From positions 1 through 38,381 of IMG/VR virus record IMGVR_UViG_3300032331_001568: a stretch of DNA of 38,381 nt. One strand, given 5' to 3'. The stretch is from a virus. The position numbers and the translations under genes were made by a program. Under the pieces are notes generated by a model that did not search any database, had not been told where the DNA came from, and worked only from the letters and a program-made list of their open reading frames with translations. Each line of letters starts with the position of its first letter. Positions within the stretch are counted from its first letter, which is position 1. Shown one piece after another: positions 2,568 to 37,995 of this stretch.

Positions 2568-2767
2568 CCGAACTACAAACAATCCCGCTCACCGCGCTAG
2601 TTATGGCGTCACCGTTTATCGCCGGCGCACTAATTGGCGAACTGATGAGCCACCGCAAACCCCGCACCAAATACACGCAACCCGAACTAATCGCCCGCCA
2701 GCGGGCAAAGATCGAGCGCAACAGCGCACGAAAAACAACCCAACAAACAAGGAAAACAGCAAAATGA
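2564..2767 (+). CDS. Small membrane-anchored basic protein
   Basis: A 67-residue protein with one hydrophobic segment at about residues 7-27 (including ALVMASPFIAGALIG), followed by a strongly basic tail of about 40 residues (many Lys and Arg). A single-pass protein with a cytoplasmic basic domain is likely. It overlaps its neighbours by ATGA at both ends. Its function is unknown. Confidence 0.6.
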   Translation: MTELQTIPLTALVMASPFIAGALIGELMSHRKPRTKYTQPELIARQRAKIERNSARKTTQQTRKTAK

Positions 2768-3384
2768 GCAACGACCAAAAAACCCAAATAGGACAAATCA
2801 CCGGCACACTAAAAGACCTCGCGCAAGTGTTCGCAATAGTCACACCGTACGCCAGCACTGAGAAACAGGCTTTACAACTGGCCACGATCACCGGCCAAGT
2901 GTTCGAGTGTTGCGATAGTTACGCAGCAGTAAAACACACCACCGGCGAACAGATCACAACAACGCCGGACAGGTTCACACTGCCAGCCAGCGAAGTATCA
3001 AAAGCACTCACAGCAGCCGCCAAACTCGCCGGAAAACGTGCCGACAACGTAACCGCCACACTCACCGCCACACCGGAAACGTGGACACTCACAACGAGCG
3101 CAGGCCAAACCCACACCGGCAACAACCCACAACACGAAACACCAAACACCGAAACAATCTGGACAACAGCACAAACCACAACACCAGACACGTTTGAGCC
3201 GTTCAGCTTGGCAGCCTGGCAACTCGAACGCCTAGCCAAAACCACCAAACAAGCCGCCGGCAGCGACCAACCCGCAACACTCACCAACTACAGCACACCC
3301 ACCAAACCAGTCATCTACACAATCAGCGCACCAAACAGCACCACTGAGTTACTCATAATGCCAACCAAGCTGCAAAACAAATAA
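2764..3384 (+). CDS. Sliding-clamp-like protein (DnaN/PCNA-type candidate)
   Basis: A 206-residue protein. The visible evidence is the C-terminus: PTKPVIYTI, a short gap, then TELLIMPTKL, which matches the way beta-clamp subunits end (KPV... strand, then '-MP-RL'). The region 45-120 alternates short strands (SYAAVKHT, VTATLTATPETWTLTT) as clamp domains do. Bacterial beta clamps have three domains and about 370 residues; this length would hold two domains, as in T4 gp45 or PCNA, which work as trimers. A polymerase processivity role is therefore inferred, not shown. It is the last gene before the terminator at 3417. Confidence 0.5.
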   Translation: MSNDQKTQIGQITGTLKDLAQVFAIVTPYASTEKQALQLATITGQVFECCDSYAAVKHTTGEQITTTPDRFTLPASEVSKALTAAAKLAGKRADNVTATLTATPETWTLTTSAGQTHTGNNPQHETPNTETIWTTAQTTTPDTFEPFSLAAWQLERLAKTTKQAAGSDQPATLTNYSTPTKPVIYTISAPNSTTELLIMPTKLQNK

Positions 3385-22815: not shown

Positions 22816-23096
22816 TCAAACATCAAGAGACACATCCAAACCTGGATGTTGAGGGTTGTTTCGGATGCAAAGTTTCAGCAGTCGGATTCAGTGCAGAACT
22901 TATGCCCACCCGTACAGGTTCCTCACGGTCGGCAACTATCGCACAAAAGGATCGTGTGCTAGAAAAGGATCTAGACGCATACAAACGATTACGTGACGAC
23001 GGTATCCAACCAAGAAAAATTGATGGTGCTGCAAACGTGGAAGCGAGAGCAACAGAAAAATGGCAGGCAGAATCAGGGATACTTCCCGACTTTTAA
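22812..23096 (+). CDS. Conserved phage protein with CFGC motif
   Basis: A 94-residue protein with a GTG start overlapping the previous stop. It has HPNLDVEGCFGCKVSAVGFS near the N-terminus and AYKRLRDDGIQPRKIDG in the middle; both are hallmarks of a small protein present in many actinophage tail regions. The two cysteines could bind a metal with the nearby His. Its function is unknown. Confidence 0.75.
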   Translation: MIKHQETHPNLDVEGCFGCKVSAVGFSAELMPTRTGSSRSATIAQKDRVLEKDLDAYKRLRDDGIQPRKIDGAANVEARATEKWQAESGILPDF

Positions 23097-24184
23097 GTGT
23101 TGAAGGTGTCAACATCCCGCATATTGGTTACGGGAAAATGGTTCAAGGGTTGAAGACAGCGTTATCGGAAAAGGTAACACTTGATGACCATGCCGAAACC
23201 GTAATGTTTGCGTTACGCCCAAATCTAATCACTGGCTGGTTTAATGACCAACGTGTATCGGTGCTAACCATGTGGGAAACAAATTGGTTGCCACCAGAGT
23301 TTTATGAATATATGCCGTTAATTGAAACGGTAATTGTTCCATCCATGCACAACTTTGATCTGTTCTCTCAGTTCCACAACAATGTCCACATGATCCCGTT
23401 AGGTGTGGATCGTGATACATGGTGCCCATCAGGGGACAAACCCGAAGGCAAGTTCCAAATCATGTGTGGCGGATCAGAGTGGTATCGCAAAGGGTTAGAT
23501 GTAGTACTGGAGGTGTTTAACAAGTTGCAACTACCTGACGCTGAACTACACATTAAGATTGTGCCACCTCATCTGTCTGCACCAAAGAACCTAGATTATC
23601 CAAACGTGATCATCCACCGTGAATGGCTGACCGTTGAACAAGAACGTGATTTAGTGCGATCTATGGATGGGTTTGTATCGGTGTCCCGTGGCGAAGGGTT
23701 CGGTCTAATGCCATTACAAGCCATCTCAGCCGGTATCCCAACCATCTTGTCCAACGCTCATGGGCATCGAGAGTTTGCTGATCTAGCCACTCATCGCATA
23801 CCCACTACCAGTGTCCCTACAGGCAAAGGTGAATGGAAAAACATGGGTGATTGGGATGAACCTGACGCAGACGCACTCGCAGAAGCAATCATAGACCTAT
23901 ACAACAAACGTGACAAGTACCGTCGTCAGGCGGTCCTGACAGCCCCACAAACAGCAGCGTTTAACTGGGACACAGCAGCCGATCAAGTGCTACAGATCGT
24001 GCAACCAACCAGCAACAGGTCTACTGGTACATGGAAACCGTTTGAACCTACATGCGAAATTGAGGTATCTAAACGGATACAAGCCACCATCGGTCAACAT
24101 CATGTGGAACTATTGCCTGGAATAAAACACCGTGTAGTGTTGAATGTTAGAGACGTTCTATCAAAAGCAGGAGTGTTGGCATGA
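23060..24184 (+). CDS. Glycosyltransferase, GT4 family
   Basis: A 374-residue GT-B-fold transferase. Diagnostic points: MIPLGVD (111-117), CGGSEWYRKGLDVVL (136-150, with the RKG donor-site basic pair), and SRGEGFGLMPLQAISAGIPTI (209-229), the E-x7-E-type nucleotide-sugar motif. It transfers a sugar from an activated donor; candidate acceptors are tail proteins or the host wall. The start at 23060 overlaps the preceding gene by 37 bases. The last 45 residues (EVSKRIQATIGQHHVELLPG... DVLSKAGVL) form an extra domain not typical of GT4 enzymes. Confidence 0.85.
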   Translation: MAGRIRDTSRLLSVEGVNIPHIGYGKMVQGLKTALSEKVTLDDHAETVMFALRPNLITGWFNDQRVSVLTMWETNWLPPEFYEYMPLIETVIVPSMHNFDLFSQFHNNVHMIPLGVDRDTWCPSGDKPEGKFQIMCGGSEWYRKGLDVVLEVFNKLQLPDAELHIKIVPPHLSAPKNLDYPNVIIHREWLTVEQERDLVRSMDGFVSVSRGEGFGLMPLQAISAGIPTILSNAHGHREFADLATHRIPTTSVPTGKGEWKNMGDWDEPDADALAEAIIDLYNKRDKYRRQAVLTAPQTAAFNWDTAADQVLQIVQPTSNRSTGTWKPFEPTCEIEVSKRIQATIGQHHVELLPGIKHRVVLNVRDVLSKAGVLA

Positions 24185-29172: not shown

Positions 29173-30549
29173 ATGCGGTCTAGCCGCTGGCTGATATTTG
29201 CGCCTGTAGCAATCTTGGCGTTGTTCGCACCAACTGCTAACGCTGAACCAGTACAAGGGCTACAAACCACCTACTACACGATTACCGAGATACCGCCAAC
29301 ACGGTCAGACAACATCTATACCGAATGCGGTAGTGAAGTGGAAAACAACATCAACCGTTCCTATGACGGTGAGCCATATCTTGAATGTACCTATGACCTA
29401 TTCATGGTTCACATGACTGGGGCAATCATTATTCCTGAGCATGAGACCATCGAGTTTTGGTTAGCTTCAGATGACGGTGGCACCATCAAGATAGGTACCC
29501 ATGAGTGGGGCAACTGGGGCGACCAAGGTTGTACTTGGATGGAGTCAGGTCAGATAGACATTAGTGCAGGCATCCAGCCGCTTGACTTGTGGATGTACGA
29601 AAACGGTGGAAATACCTGCATACTTCTTGCTTGGAACATTGATAACACAGGTTGGGCTATTGTTCCTGACGAAGCATTTTTAACGGAGCCATCATGGGAC
29701 ACCACAACAACATCCACGACTACAACGACGAGCAGTTCTACTTCTGTACCCTCCACGACTGTGCCTGTGGTAGAAGAATCGACTACTACGACACTTCAAA
29801 CAACGACCACACTGCCCCCAGACACAACGGTTCCAGAAGCAACAACAACGACGGTGGTGGAAGCGTCAACAACAGTGTTAGAAACGACAACGGTTCCTGA
29901 AGTTGTGGACACAATCCCACCAGTTGTAGTCACAACGGTACCCGACACCACCGTTCCTGACACCACGGTGCCTGACACCACGGTGCCTGACACCACGGTG
30001 CCCGACACCCTGCCACCAGACACCCTGCCAGACGCACCAGAAACGCCTGTAACACCCCCAATAGACATAACCGAGGAAATACCAGCCGAACTCGTACAAG
30101 CCCTCATAGACGCTATAGATAGCGGTGAACCACTAACCGATGAACAGTTTGCCACAGCCGTAGAAGCACTCGGCGACCTCAACGAAGAACAAGCCATAGC
30201 CCTCATAGACCAACTCCTAGCCACAGACGTAACAGCCGACCAAGCCACAGAACTCGCCACCAACCCCGACGTGCTGGCTGTCATCACCTCAGACCAGGCT
30301 GAAGAAATTTTTGCCACCATCGAAGTAGACCAACTAGACGACACACAGATAGCCAAACTCACAGCCGCAATCCAAAACGCCCCCCTCGCCGTACAAAAAG
30401 CGTTTGAAAATACCATAGACATCTTCGGCGGATTCGACGACTACGTGCCAACAGGATCAAATATCCCTGTAGGTGAACGACGAACCCTTATCGCCATCGC
30501 AGCAGGGACAACCCTCACAGCAGCAGGTAGTAAGATAAAACGGAAATGA
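29173..30549 (+). CDS. Exported PA14-domain protein with Thr-rich stalk
   Basis: A 458-residue protein. Residues 1-24 are a signal peptide (RSSR, hydrophobic core, cut after ANA). Residues 28-170 read as a PA14 domain, usually sugar-binding: FWLASDDGGTIKIGTHEWGN, then ISAGIQPLDLWMYENGG and ILLAWN. Residues 176-290 are a Thr/Val/Pro stalk with DTTVP repeats. Residues 300-420 are acidic helical repeats with DEQ-/EEQA-like turns. The end has a hydrophobic stretch (about 437-451) and a KIKRK basic tail, resembling a cell-surface anchor. It lies between tail fibre and lysis genes. A surface role in the infected cell is inferred. Confidence 0.8.
   Translation: MRSSRWLIFAPVAILALFAPTANAEPVQGLQTTYYTITEIPPTRSDNIYTECGSEVENNINRSYDGEPYLECTYDLFMVHMTGAIIIPEHETIEFWLASDDGGTIKIGTHEWGNWGDQGCTWMESGQIDISAGIQPLDLWMYENGGNTCILLAWNIDNTGWAIVPDEAFLTEPSWDTTTTSTTTTTSSSTSVPSTTVPVVEESTTTTLQTTTTLPPDTTVPEATTTTVVEASTTVLETTTVPEVVDTIPPVVVTTVPDTTVPDTTVPDTTVPDTTVPDTLPPDTLPDAPETPVTPPIDITEEIPAELVQALIDAIDSGEPLTDEQFATAVEALGDLNEEQAIALIDQLLATDVTADQATELATNPDVLAVITSDQAEEIFATIEVDQLDDTQIAKLTAAIQNAPLAVQKAFENTIDIFGGFDDYVPTGSNIPVGERRTLIAIAAGTTLTAAGSKIKRK
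29944..30003 (+). repeat. 15-bp tandem repeats coding DTTVP
   Basis: Four consecutive 15-base units (GACACCACGGTGCCT and close variants) encode DTTVP repeats in the stalk; degenerate units extend on both sides. Confidence 0.8.
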
Positions 30550-30713: not shown

Positions 30714-30946
30714 AGAAAGCACAAGACATCGCAGGTCGTATCGTGGCAGTGTTCCTGTCCTCAGCATTGGCTATCGTTGGTGGTAGTGCTGTGATTGCCC
30801 CAGAGTTGCAGATTTGGAAGTCAGCTGTGCTTGCTGGTTTCGCTGCATGTGCAACCGTTGTTCAGAAGCTCGCTCAGTCATCGCTTGATGGCAAACTGAC
30901 ACTAGAAGAAATCAACAGTGCGTTCGGCGCAAAAACCGAAAAGTAA
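30710..30946 (+). CDS. Holin
   Basis: A 78-residue protein with two hydrophobic stretches (about 9-28 and 34-50) and a charged, helical C-terminus (SSLDGKLTLEEINSAFGAKTEK), typical of actinophage holins that form membrane lesions and release the endolysin. It overlaps the preceding small membrane protein by ATGA and precedes the endolysin by four bases. Confidence 0.75.
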   Translation: MKKAQDIAGRIVAVFLSSALAIVGGSAVIAPELQIWKSAVLAGFAACATVVQKLAQSSLDGKLTLEEINSAFGAKTEK

Positions 30947-30950
30947 ACCT

Positions 30951-31478
30951 GTGGCATATCCAGTTGTGCCGGTCAAACTTTGTGACCACCTAAAGAACGC
31001 TGTCCCAGGCAAACTCACTGCTGAACAGTTACGCAAAACTGTTGGTGGCACACTCCACCATTGTGCTGCTGACGCATGGGAAGCGATGGTCGATGCCGCA
31101 GACAAAGACGGTATTAAACTAACTCCCGTCTCAATCGGCGACACATATCGCACACTCGAATCCCAAACCAAAGCATTCTTTCAGCGTTACCAACTTGAAT
31201 CAACAGGAAACCCTGACACACGCACCTTTGAAGGCAAACTTTGGTACCTAAAAAAAGGTCAAGCTTGCCTTGCCACACCAGGAAAATCGCAGCACAACTT
31301 GGGCATCGCAGTCGATGTGGCTACAGCATCAGGTCCACGTTTGGCATGGATGCTAGAGAACGAACACCTTTACGGCTTCTCACACGAAGTCCAATCCGAA
31401 CCGTGGCACATCCGCTACACCCAAGGAAACCAAGTCCCACCTGCCGTTGCAGCCTTCGTTACTGCGAAAGCCGTATGA
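30951..31478 (+). CDS. Endolysin, M15 (VanY/L-Ala-D-Glu) peptidase
   Basis: A 175-residue zinc peptidase. Zinc ligands and catalytic residues are visible: SQHNLGIAVD (113-122; His115, Asp122) and EPWH (150-153; Glu150, His153), the M15 signature. It should cut the stem peptide of peptidoglycan at lysis. The GTG at 30951 is preferred since it avoids overlap with the holin; a GTG at 30918 is in frame. No separate wall-binding domain is present, which is short for an actinophage endolysin. Confidence 0.85.
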   Translation: MAYPVVPVKLCDHLKNAVPGKLTAEQLRKTVGGTLHHCAADAWEAMVDAADKDGIKLTPVSIGDTYRTLESQTKAFFQRYQLESTGNPDTRTFEGKLWYLKKGQACLATPGKSQHNLGIAVDVATASGPRLAWMLENEHLYGFSHEVQSEPWHIRYTQGNQVPPAVAAFVTAKAV

Positions 31479-33946: not shown

Positions 33947-34894
33947 ATGCAGAACAGATACACAATCCCAAAGCCACCACACGGCAGCCAAGAATGGTTG
34001 AACGCACGATGGCAAAACGATGAAGGTCTAGCACGGATCACAGCATCCGTGGCCGCCGTAGTTCACAACGAACACCGCTTCACCACACCAGCAGACCTCG
34101 CAGTAGAACTCTTGGCAAAGATACCCCCCGTGCCAAAAGAACAAAACGATGCGATGCGTCGAGGAACAATCCTTGAAGGGCCACTCATGTTGTGGGCATC
34201 AGAAATCCTGAACGTCACCATTAGCGAACCACAAGACTTGTACTGCTACGAAGAAGAAGGCGTACGCCTGATGGCAACATTGGATGGCAAAGATTTGTCA
34301 GGAAAAATCTATGAACTGAAAACCTATAACAAAAGGTGGAACGGTCAACTCCCCCCATATTGGAAATGGCAAGGAGTACAACAAGCGATCTGCGCTGATA
34401 CAAACGAAATCACATGGATCGTTTTTGACTCCGATCTTCAACTGCAATTCCACACACAAACCGTCACATCCGACGAACGCCAACAACACATAGACGCAGT
34501 ACGCAAATTCTTGGGGTTCATCGACATGGGGATGATGCCGGAAGGTGCTGACCCCACCTACGACAACGTTTCGGCTTTGTACCCCGAAGGATATGAGAAC
34601 ACTGTTGTCTTGGGCCATGAGGTATACAACACTTTAGAGCGTCTGTCTATCGCCAAAGAACAAATCAAATCTGCTGAAGCAGTACGCGACCAGTTGCAAG
34701 GTGAGTTGGGGATGCTGCTCGGTGACGCAGAGTACGGCTCGATTGATGGGGTGCAGGTCGTATCGTGGAAGAACTCGTCACGTACATCGTTTGATGCTAA
34801 ACAGTTTGAGAAAGAACATCCGGCTTTACACGCAAAGTTTAAGAAAACATCAACCTTCCGCACTATGCGGATCACAGCAAAGGAGAGCAAATGA
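33947..34894 (+). CDS. YqaJ-type exonuclease
   Basis: A 315-residue nuclease of the lambda-exonuclease/RecE group. Landmarks: GSQEWLNARW (13-22) and ITASVAAVV (31-39) for the substrate-binding start, Glu77 in ILEGPL, Asp113 in TLDG, and the ELK triad at 123-125 (YELKT). It should degrade one strand of dsDNA ends to give 3' tails for the annealing protein encoded downstream. Its size is slightly above the family average because of a C-terminal helical domain (about 225-315). Confidence 0.88.
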   Translation: MQNRYTIPKPPHGSQEWLNARWQNDEGLARITASVAAVVHNEHRFTTPADLAVELLAKIPPVPKEQNDAMRRGTILEGPLMLWASEILNVTISEPQDLYCYEEEGVRLMATLDGKDLSGKIYELKTYNKRWNGQLPPYWKWQGVQQAICADTNEITWIVFDSDLQLQFHTQTVTSDERQQHIDAVRKFLGFIDMGMMPEGADPTYDNVSALYPEGYENTVVLGHEVYNTLERLSIAKEQIKSAEAVRDQLQGELGMLLGDAEYGSIDGVQVVSWKNSSRTSFDAKQFEKEHPALHAKFKKTSTFRTMRITAKESK

Positions 34895-35164: not shown

Positions 35165-36127
35165 ATGAAACTGGAAGAAATCCTCGGAGCATACGGTGTG
35201 CCAGACCCAAAGATCGTTGGCAAACTACCAAAGGCAGGCACCTCGCTTGATTTTGTCGGGCATGCGGACATTACACGAATCTTGTTGGAGATTGACCCGA
35301 CATGGCGTTGGGTTCCTATCGCATGGGATAACGGTCGACCATCAATCCATGTTGAGAACGGCATCGCAACCATGTGGGGTGAACTCACAATTCTTGGACA
35401 AGCCCGCCTGGGTGTTGGTTCGGTTCGTGCAGACAAACAAGAATTAGACAAAGAACTTATCGGTGACTTCCTTCGTAACGCTGCGATGCGTTTCGGTATC
35501 TGTCTATCGTTGTGGACTAAACAAGAATGGGATGATGTATCCCACATCACAACTAAACCGATGCCTAAAGTTGCAACACCAGCACCCCAGGCAAAACCTG
35601 CGACCGACGCTAACCCGTTGGTATCAGCAGAGAACATCGAACGGTTCAAAGGTGCATGTGCAGAGGTTGCTTTGGATTGGCGCGAAGTAGCCAACACTGC
35701 CGGAGTCAACCTTGACAACTTGCATGAATCCGATATGGATTTGTTACGTGCCGCATATGCCACAGCCAAGAAAGCGTTATACGCACCGAAACCTGTTGTT
35801 GAACCTGAAGTAATGGATGACTTCAACCCTGCATACAACACTGAAGAAGCATTAGCCACAGTGGTTGACCTGTTCGTGGGTGCAGAAGTGATCGAACCAT
35901 CACGCAGCAACCACCCTGCGAACGGCACACCACAAATCAAAGAACCAAACGCATCGGCCACACCGCCACAATTAGGCAAACTTCGTGCGTTATGCAGTGG
36001 TGCAGGTATCAACAGTAAAGAAGACCAGCTCTCAATGGCATCAGATCACACGAAACGAACCATCACATCGTTCAATGATATAACCAAAAAAGAGGCATCA
36101 GAACTCATCAGCATCCTCGCACCGTGA
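35165..36127 (+). CDS. Single-strand annealing protein
   Basis: A 320-residue protein. Residues 28-115 (DFVGHADITRILLEIDPTWRW, GQARLGVGSVRADKQELDKE and ELIGDFLRNAAMRFGI) match an actinophage annealase core related to Sak/Rad52- or RecT-like recombinases. A Pro/Ala linker (135-150) and a C-terminal adaptor (about 265-320: PPQLGKLRALCSGAGI, then KRTITSFNDITKKEASELI) follow, as in other annealing proteins. Downstream of an exonuclease, it should pair the single strands during recombination or replication. Confidence 0.78.
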   Translation: MKLEEILGAYGVPDPKIVGKLPKAGTSLDFVGHADITRILLEIDPTWRWVPIAWDNGRPSIHVENGIATMWGELTILGQARLGVGSVRADKQELDKELIGDFLRNAAMRFGICLSLWTKQEWDDVSHITTKPMPKVATPAPQAKPATDANPLVSAENIERFKGACAEVALDWREVANTAGVNLDNLHESDMDLLRAAYATAKKALYAPKPVVEPEVMDDFNPAYNTEEALATVVDLFVGAEVIEPSRSNHPANGTPQIKEPNASATPPQLGKLRALCSGAGINSKEDQLSMASDHTKRTITSFNDITKKEASELISILAP

Positions 36128-36459
36128 GCAAAAACAAATCTAAAGGCACAGCCTTCGAGACACTCATCGTTGACTATCTGAAACAGTTTTATCCGAACTG
36201 TGAACGACGCGCACTACAAGGAGCGTTAGACAAAGGTGACATCACCGGTGTAGACAACCGCTTGGTTTTTGAATGCAAATCCCACAACACCCTCAACTTC
36301 TCTGGCTGGCTGAAAGAAGCCGAAACAGAACGGATAAACGCCAACGCAGAAGTTGGGGTTGTGGTTGCCAAACGTCGAGGGTATGGTAAAGCCGAAGATC
36401 AGTACGTGGTACTCACCGTAAAAGATTTGATCAAGCTGTTAAACATTACTGAATACTGA
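36124..36459 (+). CDS. PD-(D/E)XK Holliday-junction resolvase-like nuclease
   Basis: A 111-residue nuclease, GTG start overlapping the annealase stop. Active-site residues are visible: Glu12 (KGTAFETL), Asp39 (GDITGV), and Glu50-x-Lys52 (FECKS). The pattern RRALQGALDKGDITG is typical of small phage resolvases/VRR-like enzymes. It probably resolves branched DNA made by the exonuclease/annealase pair before packaging. Confidence 0.82.
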   Translation: MSKNKSKGTAFETLIVDYLKQFYPNCERRALQGALDKGDITGVDNRLVFECKSHNTLNFSGWLKEAETERINANAEVGVVVAKRRGYGKAEDQYVVLTVKDLIKLLNITEY

Positions 36460-36463
36460 TGTA

Positions 36464-36546
36464 ACAACAACATTCAGGGTACGCTCCCTCATAACCGGCG
36501 CGTGTTGTTGTCCCCTAGCCATTGTCTGATCGCGGTGGACTAGGGG
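36464..36546 (+). other. Two consecutive hairpins in 141-base gap
   Basis: ACAACAACA (36464-36472) pairs with TGTTGTTGT (36503-36511), enclosing an AGGG/CCCT stem. Directly after it CCCCTAG (36512-36518) pairs with CTAGGGG (36540-36546). The last arm could instead pair with ACCCT at about 36551-36555. The gap lies between resolvase and the exported lytic protein. Confidence 0.55.
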
Positions 36547-36580
36547 TAAAACCCTTTACAAGTAAGCAACTCGACCTTTT

Positions 36581-36589
36581 TGCTATGAT
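36581..36589 (+). promoter_or_regulatory. Extended -10 promoter element
   Basis: TGCTATGAT: TG at -15/-14 and a TATGAT -10 box (36584-36589) form an extended -10; no strong -35 is seen. It overlaps AGGAGA (36590-36595), the ribosome-binding site of the gene at 36601, so any transcript from it would be almost leaderless and may lack part of that site. It may serve the genes after the one at 36601. Confidence 0.3.
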
Positions 36590-36600
36590 AGGAGACACCA

Positions 36601-37122
36601 ATGCGAAACCTTGTACGGCTATTTGCCGTTTCTATGGTAGGGATTATCACCTTCGGCAGCATAGTTTCAGCAGCCAAAGCCCCTTTGCCAACCCCTGAAC
36701 CTCTTAGCGTGGCTCTCCGTGCGTCTGACAGTGTGCCTGAACCTGACATCGTGTTCCGTCACGGCGACATCTCATGGCTACCAGAACTAGCTGCTAAAGC
36801 AGGCTGGCCACCTGAAACATGGCAACGCTTGGGTGAAATAATCTTACGCGAATCCGGCGGATGCCCGACCCGTATCGGCGGCTCGGTAGTCGATGAGGAT
36901 TGCAACTTCATTCGCATGGCAACCATGACCCACCCTTCAGATAGCGGCCTACTGATGATTAACGGTATTAACTGGGATTTGAAGCGAACCCAATTTGCAA
37001 TCGTCTGTGTTCGTATGGGAGTATGTACCCAGGAGGCGTTAATGAACCCGATAACAAACCTACGTGCTGGCAAACTACTGTTCGATGTGGCAGGCTGGAG
37101 TCCATGGAATCCACAGAAATGA
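36601..37122 (+). CDS. Exported lytic transglycosylase-like protein
   Basis: A 173-residue protein with a signal peptide (residues 1-25, RNLVR then a hydrophobic core, end VSAAKA) and an SLT-type fold: ILRESGG (81-87, catalytic Glu84 followed by Ser), DSGLLMINGINW (114-125) and NPITNLRAGKLLF (149-161). It should cleave the glycan strand of peptidoglycan outside the membrane. Cysteines 88, 101, 136 and 142 could form two disulphides, fitting an extracellular enzyme. It is not in the lysis cassette and is exported without a holin. Confidence 0.8.
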   Translation: MRNLVRLFAVSMVGIITFGSIVSAAKAPLPTPEPLSVALRASDSVPEPDIVFRHGDISWLPELAAKAGWPPETWQRLGEIILRESGGCPTRIGGSVVDEDCNFIRMATMTHPSDSGLLMINGINWDLKRTQFAIVCVRMGVCTQEALMNPITNLRAGKLLFDVAGWSPWNPQK

Positions 37123-37406
37123 GCTTGCTAGACAACTTCATTAACGAACTAAAAGACAACAACTTCGGTTGGCAAAACAAAGCAGAATGCCGAGGCGAAC
37201 TCACCGAACTGTTCTTCATGGACATTGAAGAAATATCTATCAACCACATCAAGATGCGTGAAGCCCGCGCAATCTGCGACCGATGCCAAGTAAAAAAACA
37301 ATGCCTTGACTTTGCTCTAGTAAACAACATAGATTATGGGGTATGGGGTGGCACATCCCCACATCAACGGAAAGGTATGCGCAGTGAGCAACGAAACAGA
37401 GTTTGA
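37119..37406 (+). CDS. whiB: WhiB-like transcription regulator
   Basis: A 95-residue protein with the complete WhiB signature: Cys24, Cys53, Cys56 and Cys62 (AICDRCQVKKQC) for a [4Fe-4S] cluster, then GVWGG (74-78) and a basic C-terminus (RKGMRSEQRNR). WhiB proteins bind the host sigma factor and alter promoter choice. The ATG 37119 overlaps the previous stop (ATGA); ATG 37104 with GGAG is an alternative. A phage copy can compete with host WhiB proteins, as shown for a mycobacteriophage WhiB (WhiBTM4). Confidence 0.92.
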   Translation: MSLLDNFINELKDNNFGWQNKAECRGELTELFFMDIEEISINHIKMREARAICDRCQVKKQCLDFALVNNIDYGVWGGTSPHQRKGMRSEQRNRV

Positions 37407-37599
37407 ACTTGAATACTGGCAGGATCGAGTAGACGCACTCGCTGTCACCAACCAAGCGTTACAAGAAGAACGTGACCGCTACATGGATGCAGCCGAATCG
37501 CTCGCCAAAGAACTTGACGCACTCAAAGCAACAATGAAACAAGCCGAGTCTGTCATCTCACGGCTACGAACCCACATCGCACAAGGCGTAGAACTTTAA
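37384..37599 (+). CDS. Coiled-coil protein (71 aa)
   Basis: A 71-residue helical protein (VTNQALQEERDRYMDAAESL, then DALKATMKQAESVISRLRTH), likely a long dimeric coiled coil. The GTG at 37384 is chosen for GGAAAGG about 8 bases upstream; the gene overlaps the WhiB end by 23 bases. The partner is unknown. Confidence 0.6.
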   Translation: MSNETEFELEYWQDRVDALAVTNQALQEERDRYMDAAESLAKELDALKATMKQAESVISRLRTHIAQGVEL

Positions 37600-37617
37600 G
37601 CAACGCCGAGGGGCAAC

Positions 37618-37995
37618 ATGAAACCAGTACACATCGAACTTTTCATTGACCGGCTCTGCGGCCTGTTCCCGACAACTAACATCGCACGTAACACGTTGAA
37701 ATCTGCGTGGACACGCGACGACATCATGCTTGACGCATCAGAAGAAGACGGTAAAGCCGTACTCAAACTATGTGAATCACTATCCAAATTCCCTGCCTCA
37801 ATCGGCGAAGTACGCCACATGTTTCGACAAGTTGGCGGTCACATTGGTGGCACATTTGGCTGCGAACTTTGTGACTTTACAGGATGGGATGTTGGCAGAC
37901 AAACCATTGACCGTGTAGAAACGTTTTACACAATGGAATTTATGGGCGGCACATACGGCTATGTAAAACCATGCGAATGCAGGAAAGCAGCATGA
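37618..37995 (+). CDS. Helicase-loader-like protein with zinc motif
   Basis: A 125-residue protein. The N-terminal helical half (IELFIDRLCGLFP, LKSAWTRDDIM, LCESLSKFPASIGEVRHMF) resembles the G39P-type helicase loader/inhibitor domain ('FP---E-'). The C-terminal half is a zinc-ribbon candidate: CELC (82-85), TGWD, then YVKPCEC (115-121). GAGGGG precedes the ATG. It would help bring the replicative helicase to DNA; the match is by pattern only. Confidence 0.55.
   Translation: MKPVHIELFIDRLCGLFPTTNIARNTLKSAWTRDDIMLDASEEDGKAVLKLCESLSKFPASIGEVRHMFRQVGGHIGGTFGCELCDFTGWDVGRQTIDRVETFYTMEFMGGTYGYVKPCECRKAA

Follow-up and report, generated by a model that had tools for sequence, protein, structure and literature searches.

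A lysozyme-like enzyme gene and a whiB gene form a conserved pair in phages that probably infect actinobacteria, in many of them behind a structured RNA

The stretch of DNA analyzed here, referred to as the window, is the whole of the IMG/VR record IMGVR_UViG_3300032331_001568 (38,381 bases). Toward its right end, a gene for an exported-looking enzyme of the lysozyme type is followed by a gene for a WhiB regulator (Table 1). The stop codon of the first and the start codon of the second share the bases ATGA (37119-37122), an overlap that an earlier note on this DNA had reported and that we confirm. That note also placed the pair outside the lysis region, and this is correct: the VanY-type endolysin candidate lies about 5 kb away on the same strand, and recombination genes stand between it and the pair. 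On the 3' side of whiB there are a small coiled-coil ORF, an unknown ORF and a C5-methyltransferase gene truncated by the end of the record. Elsewhere in the window, a glycosyltransferase gene (23060-24184; PF00534, also GT4-conflict) occurs amid virion-type genes. Immediately before the VanY gene, positions 29173-30549 encode a 458-aa protein with a hydrophobic N-terminal segment, a long Thr-rich region and a weak PA14 match that falls below the cut-off.

Table 1. Positions of the genes, RNA helices and signals discussed in the text (numbering of the window)
Feature	Position	Strand	Details
VanY-type endolysin candidate	30918-31478	+	PF02557, E 8e-16
RecE-like exonuclease gene	33947-34894	+	phrog_434, E 4.7e-51
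Single-strand annealing protein gene	35165-36127	+	phrog_3290, E 9.7e-49
Holliday-junction-resolvase-like gene, upstream of the enzyme gene	36124-36459	+	phrog_244, E 5.5e-29
Structured RNA element, 97 nt, between resolvase and enzyme genes	36461-36557	+	covariation
RNA P1	36465-36471/36504-36510	+	
RNA P2, inferred pseudoknot	36477-36480/36551-36554	+	
RNA P3	36481-36484/36500-36503	+	
RNA P4	36512-36520/36538-36546	+	
TATGAT (-10-like), abutting the AGGAG ribosome-binding site	from 36584; ribosome-binding site 36590-36594	+	
Putative signal peptide, about residues 1-25	36601-36675	+	hydrophobicity heuristic; cleavage site by eye
Exported-looking lysozyme-superfamily (SLT_3 / C-type-like) enzyme gene	36601-37122	+	173 aa, ATG start
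WhiB-type regulator gene	37119-37406	+	ATG at 37119; PF02467

Relatives of the enzyme were gathered by scanning viral contigs. The protein retrieved 19 loci, a pattern made from the leader 21 stretches, a first alignment (A1) 24 loci and the domain of one divergent relative (L019) 5 loci; with a second alignment (A2), the best 80 of 222 relatives were kept. Since the enzyme itself served as query and only these best 80 were retained, the collection is biased to near relatives. For several analyses we used 35 representatives, excluding sequences shorter than 115 aa, containing X, on minus-strand loci or at least 88% identical to one already kept. Two scans of prokaryote genomes confirmed no relative, which is weak evidence of absence because confirmation was made against the divergent window sequence. 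Among cultured phages, the window enzyme found no match. The L019 protein matched DSL-LC01 (E 4e-2) and two TPA2 records (tape measure; E 6e-2), and another relative, L127, matched DSL-LC01 at E 2e-5; WhiB is not among the 10 annotated features of the matched DSL-LC01 stretch.

The window enzyme matched no family in Pfam, PHROG or NCBIfam, and a phmmer search of PDB sequences gave a single unrelated match (E 0.9). Its assignment as a wall enzyme is made through its relatives and a structure model. Pfam matches among 38 aligned members (E <= 0.01) were to SLT_3 (PF18896) in 33, to C-type lysozyme (PF00062) in 28 and to SLT in 23, and one member (L048) exceeds the PF00062 cut-off, with 28.9 bits against 27. 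When the profile of the 38 members was compared with PDB chains it reached solved structures of C-type lysozymes from animals (best E 1.2e-8), and all 60 chains listed among the 257 matches carry the name lysozyme. A PHROG match at E <= 0.001 was obtained for one of the 38. These are thus phage proteins whose profile extends to animal C-type lysozymes, yet which are scarcely represented in phage family libraries.

The putative catalytic residues Glu84 and Asp114, at the positions of Glu35 and Asp52 of lysozyme, are invariant (38/38). Gly116 and Gln119 are each conserved in 37 of the 38, the exception for Gln being the window protein, which has Met there; the window member also has an insert between the Glu and the Asp. 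According to PMC2976769, Asp52, Gly54 and Gln57 of the GH22c lysozymes have the same spacing as the Asp-x-Gly-x-x-Gln of the phage family. The likeness to C-type lysozymes (GH22c) and SLT_3 therefore comprises the family profile over about 110 residues, the Glu and Asp positions and this motif; the differences are that the enzymes here are phage-encoded and paired with whiB, and that the window member has no library match.

A model of the window protein built from a deeper alignment had a mean pLDDT of 70.5 (an earlier one, from close relatives only, reached 39 and was discarded). Glu84 falls at the end of a modelled helix (residues 71-85), as does the general-acid Glu of the central helix in the lysozyme superfamily. 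The best VIA-align superposition had a Z of 6.1 over 98 residues (rmsd 4.1), a value below 8 and so in the range that can reflect no more than a shared arrangement. C-type lysozymes were on top (Z 6.1, 5.5, 5.5), followed by lytic transglycosylases, and no other kind of enzyme occurred among the 18 matches listed with a Z of at least 2. Foldseek gave an insignificant best match (E 2.7). The window protein probably belongs to the lysozyme superfamily, and the family is closer to C-type lysozyme and Pfam SLT_3 than to the classical lytic transglycosylases. The description in the earlier note, a lytic transglycosylase-like enzyme with its own signal peptide, stands as to the type of gene, one for a wall enzyme, given the relatives and the model, and needs revision as to the family, though SLT is matched by 23 of the 38 members; its export signal is recovered by a heuristic.

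On the Kyte-Doolittle scale, the N-terminus of the window enzyme has a 12-residue maximum of 2.38 at residues 7-18, and its own mature part reaches 1.92. By the same kind of simple scale, 34 of the 35 representatives have a hydrophobic N-terminal segment, a count to be read knowing that the threshold of 1.6 is also exceeded by the mature parts of the window protein, L004, L014, L048, L098 and L110 and that the long proteins L098 and L110 were scored at residues 46-90. The sole exception (L077) has a misassigned start; the longer frame, in L136 of the same contig, contains MKFPTSILLAAILFFSS. Several members have Pro/Thr-rich linkers after the hydrophobic segment. As evidence of export, the hydrophobic N-termini are suggestive only, and the putative exported form would be either secreted or membrane-anchored.

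The regulator is a clear member of its family, with a PF02467 match at E 4.9e-20 (72.3 bits; cut-off 23.6). Its cysteines 24, 53, 56 and 62 are invariant (18/18), and the window protein has the turn GVWGG (G-[VI]-W-[GA]-G). Most records hold a single WhiB (21/23). The earlier note had suggested comparing the gene pair across phages. The WhiB profile was run over all loci gathered by then; across IMG/VR contigs, whiB comes directly after the enzyme gene in 73 of 85 distinct related sequences, fragments included. Four of the remaining 12 are cut off (L017, L020, L021 and L078, L021 being the second piece of the L018 contig), and the other eight form a single clade (L098, L100, L103, L104, L110, L115, L120 and L126). 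Members of this clade have a long basic N-terminus; in L115 the enzyme gene (2656-3321) is followed by an HNH-like and then a terminase-like ORF, as identified by eye.

In each pair aligned at the junction, a start for whiB is available within about 50 nt of the enzyme stop. The group of the window has the whiB ATG at -3 (ATGA), and most others have ATGs at about +5 to +11 and about -50, of which the one at -50 may represent the codons of a conserved Tyr-Asp-Tyr. Protein distances of enzyme and WhiB correlate (r 0.67, n=33, reached in none of 1000 permutations), a result that shared ancestry could give as well. A search with one single WhiB found six loci, one being a known pair; another (L144) has no lysozyme ORF beside its WhiB.

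Comparison of the window with eight close relatives puts dN/dS at 0.06-0.32 in the enzyme gene and at 0.06-0.43 in whiB: both genes are under purifying selection. Because the enzyme is constrained and is followed by whiB in so large a share of the sequences, the pair is more than a chance arrangement. Phage whiB is treated as a marker of actinophages in PMC6802176 and PMC10202952. Enzyme and whiB constitute a conserved two-gene unit of viruses whose hosts are probably actinobacteria.

The enzyme gene is mosaic. Its dS is 0-0.20 within codons 1-40 and 0.23-0.80 beyond them, which points to exchange or to constraint at the nucleotide level in the leader. The leader (36601-36720) is identical to positions 5001-5120 of L042 at 109 of 120 nt, and the catalytic domains of the two have diverged beyond nucleotide alignment. 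L019 and L042-L044 have the leader of the window and then, in the same place, a divergent yet recognisable lysozyme-like domain. The gene of L014 (2490-3008) is near-identical to that of the window save at about codons 80-120, the active-site stretch of about 120 nt, where L015 and L016 carry the same protein segment as L014. In these three loci the active-site stretch is a mosaic replacement.

Such mosaicism would also suit a history in which an ancestor acquired the enzyme gene at a site flanked by the resolvase gene and whiB, and its descendants kept this order, with the enzyme and WhiB serving separate ends. The clade that has the enzyme without whiB fits this history, as do cultured phages. 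WhiB relatives occur in 841 cultured-phage records. In the five regions that we viewed, whiB adjoins an annotated resolvase gene, with no enzyme gene between them, in Thermobifida phage P1312 and Mycobacterium phage Moostard, and stands beside hypothetical genes in Jamie19 and Circinus. Set against this, the pair is kept at enzyme identities down to 24% amid changing flanks, as in L047 and L048, and we regard neighbours that lack a joint function as the most improbable of the explanations considered. Conservation over diverged phages supports the view that the coupling itself matters.

The gap between the resolvase and enzyme genes contains a structured RNA that the earlier note did not mention. 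When 21 sequences were aligned by sequence only, 91.5% of 495 cells were paired and 15 of 24 pairs had changes on both sides; neither value was reached in any of 500 shuffles, although the structure was drawn from the same sequences, so that slid controls favour it. An alignment fitted to the model (24 matches, 22 distinct rows), which leans to the structure, gave 96.0% paired cells and double changes in 16 of 20 pairs. P1, P3 and P4 covary. P2 is paired in 81% of its cells with zero changes on both sides and is therefore only inferred. The single-sequence fold of the gap beats shuffles by a modest margin only (z -1.68; 13 of 200 as good); the case for the RNA is a case from covariation.

The position of the RNA is consistent. 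All 24 matches of the model in 60 sources lie 5' of the enzyme gene (the weakest, in L054, at E 0.016), and L031 (E 2.8e-14) and L050 (E 1.7e-7) match from outside the training set. The RNA was found in 11 of 27 records, once in each and twice in none. A scan of all viral contigs with the RNA pattern retrieved nine contigs, seven of which the enzyme had already yielded; the other two, L132 and L133, likewise have an enzyme gene beginning after the RNA, truncated where the contig stops. L136 has a small ORF separating the RNA from the enzyme gene. The pair can do without the RNA, as the model found no match in L022, L042-L044, L047 or L048/L049.

In the window, every Rfam family stayed below its gathering score, and no DNA similar to the RNA region was found among cultured phages. 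The names returned below threshold were taken as chance: mir-935, TLS-PK6 (E 0.63, over 36542-36576) and, in L061, 12 names including RAGATH-13 (minus strand, E 3.6). An HDV-like ribozyme was considered for its topology. In that ribozyme the catalytic C lies between P4 and P2; here the base after P4, read by eye, is C in 13, T in 5 (the window included) and A in 3 of the 21 sequences, and none of the HDV-type families in Rfam matched, so this identity was rejected.

The -10-like TATGAT between the RNA and the enzyme gene bears on what the RNA serves. The motif TAnnnT occurs just 5' of the ribosome-binding site in 17 of the 35 representatives, against 6.9 expected by shuffling, and also in RNA-less loci such as L019 and L047; the -10-like pattern was derived from the site itself, so that a zero expectation for it proves little. 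The pair could accordingly have its own promoter at 36584, downstream of an RNA that belongs to the upstream operon and serves to terminate the recombination transcript or to shield its 3' end. This arrangement is somewhat unlikely in our judgement. A sigma-70 scan of 35900-37700 passed over TATGAT and gave numbers at the shuffled level, and a scan for intrinsic terminators over the same interval was likewise at the shuffled level and found no T-run terminator; moreover, the scans found the RNA only before the enzyme gene.

As an alternative we entertain, tentatively and at a little short of an even chance, that the element represents a novel class of regulatory RNA in phages. It would have the topology of the HDV ribozyme, a nested double pseudoknot, with no conserved catalytic C, and would be dedicated to one operon, sensing or being processed in the state of an infected actinobacterium and so gating the joint output of lysozyme and WhiB. 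Streptomyces rpfA is an example of an exported wall enzyme controlled by RNA, and shares with our locus a structured RNA before a wall enzyme gene. The same likeness holds for the exported wall enzymes of actinobacteria under riboswitch control that PMC9960051 treats. The present RNA differs in falling below every Rfam gathering score and in that its ligand is hypothetical.

The main rival to a function shared with WhiB is accessory lysis, in which the exported lysozyme acts late alongside VanY, cutting the glycan as an endolysin of the signal-peptide or signal-anchor-release type, and WhiB is a mere neighbour. VanY domains are a peptidase family, and a glycan-cutting partner would complement them. 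Of 23 records, 18 have VanY and the five that lack it are shorter contigs of 17-35 kb, so the lysozyme-like enzyme is not the sole lysin of those phages. All the genes are on one strand, and shared late transcription is possible given that the pair lies on the strand of VanY at the distance stated above. The N-terminal segments of the family are rich in Gly, Ala, Ser and Thr, as are the N-termini of signal-anchor-release enzymes. Against these points, the gene stands after the recombination genes rather than in a lysis cassette, and its conserved link, in 73 of the 85 sequences, is to WhiB. We consider accessory lysis unlikely, at perhaps one step above the inherited gene order discussed earlier.

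On balance we lean, with reservation, toward a module, placed after the recombination genes and apart from a separate VanY gene, whose joint products are an exported muramidase and a WhiB regulator, with expression perhaps controlled at the RNA level. The muramidase, secreted or membrane-anchored, would cross the membrane and cut or loosen peptidoglycan during infection, and WhiB, translated in overlap with it, would alter host transcription of division and wall genes; envelope and transcription would thereby change jointly. The RNA would control the expression or processing of the unit. The arrangement suggests that the attack on the wall and the reprogramming of the host may start together. 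For the phage, the gain might be to keep other phages out, to let the wall go on growing while the infection runs, or to assist VanY at lysis. The proposal of the earlier note that early expression could reshape the wall, impede superinfection or work jointly with WhiB is a conjecture at this stage.

Full-text literature searches found no earlier report of a lysozyme-WhiB pair. A survey of whiB neighbourhoods (PMC8612146), in the text available from it, gives DUF732 in 37.9% without naming any lysozyme domain, and mentions neither lysin nor transglycosylase. That text also relates that the WhiB of mycobacteriophage TM4 inhibits host whiB2 and excludes superinfection, and gives TM4 as the only phage with a WhiB studied for its role in infection; TM4 resembles the present case in having a phage WhiB and differs in that no lysozyme partner is named there. 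The accessible parts of PMC6802176 and PMC10202952 mention none of lysozyme, transglycosylase, endolysin or peptidoglycan, the latter stating that genes for host-wall degradation are present, and PMC10914622 mentions neither lysozyme nor transglycosylase. With a constant partner gene whose enzymatic activity can be assayed, and an RNA found only before it, the role of a phage WhiB becomes testable; the question raised is whether a change of the envelope is part of the same programme as the reprogramming of the host.

The closest likeness in the cultured phages viewed is Mycobacterium phage Saroj (gp56-gp57), in which a small DUF732 protein with an evident signal sequence is encoded right before whiB, with one base shared; it differs in that DUF732 has no known enzyme function. 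Going by annotation, Saroj alone of the five has a protein of this kind before whiB. Its DUF732 gene (969-1316 of L140) may be a parallel pairing.
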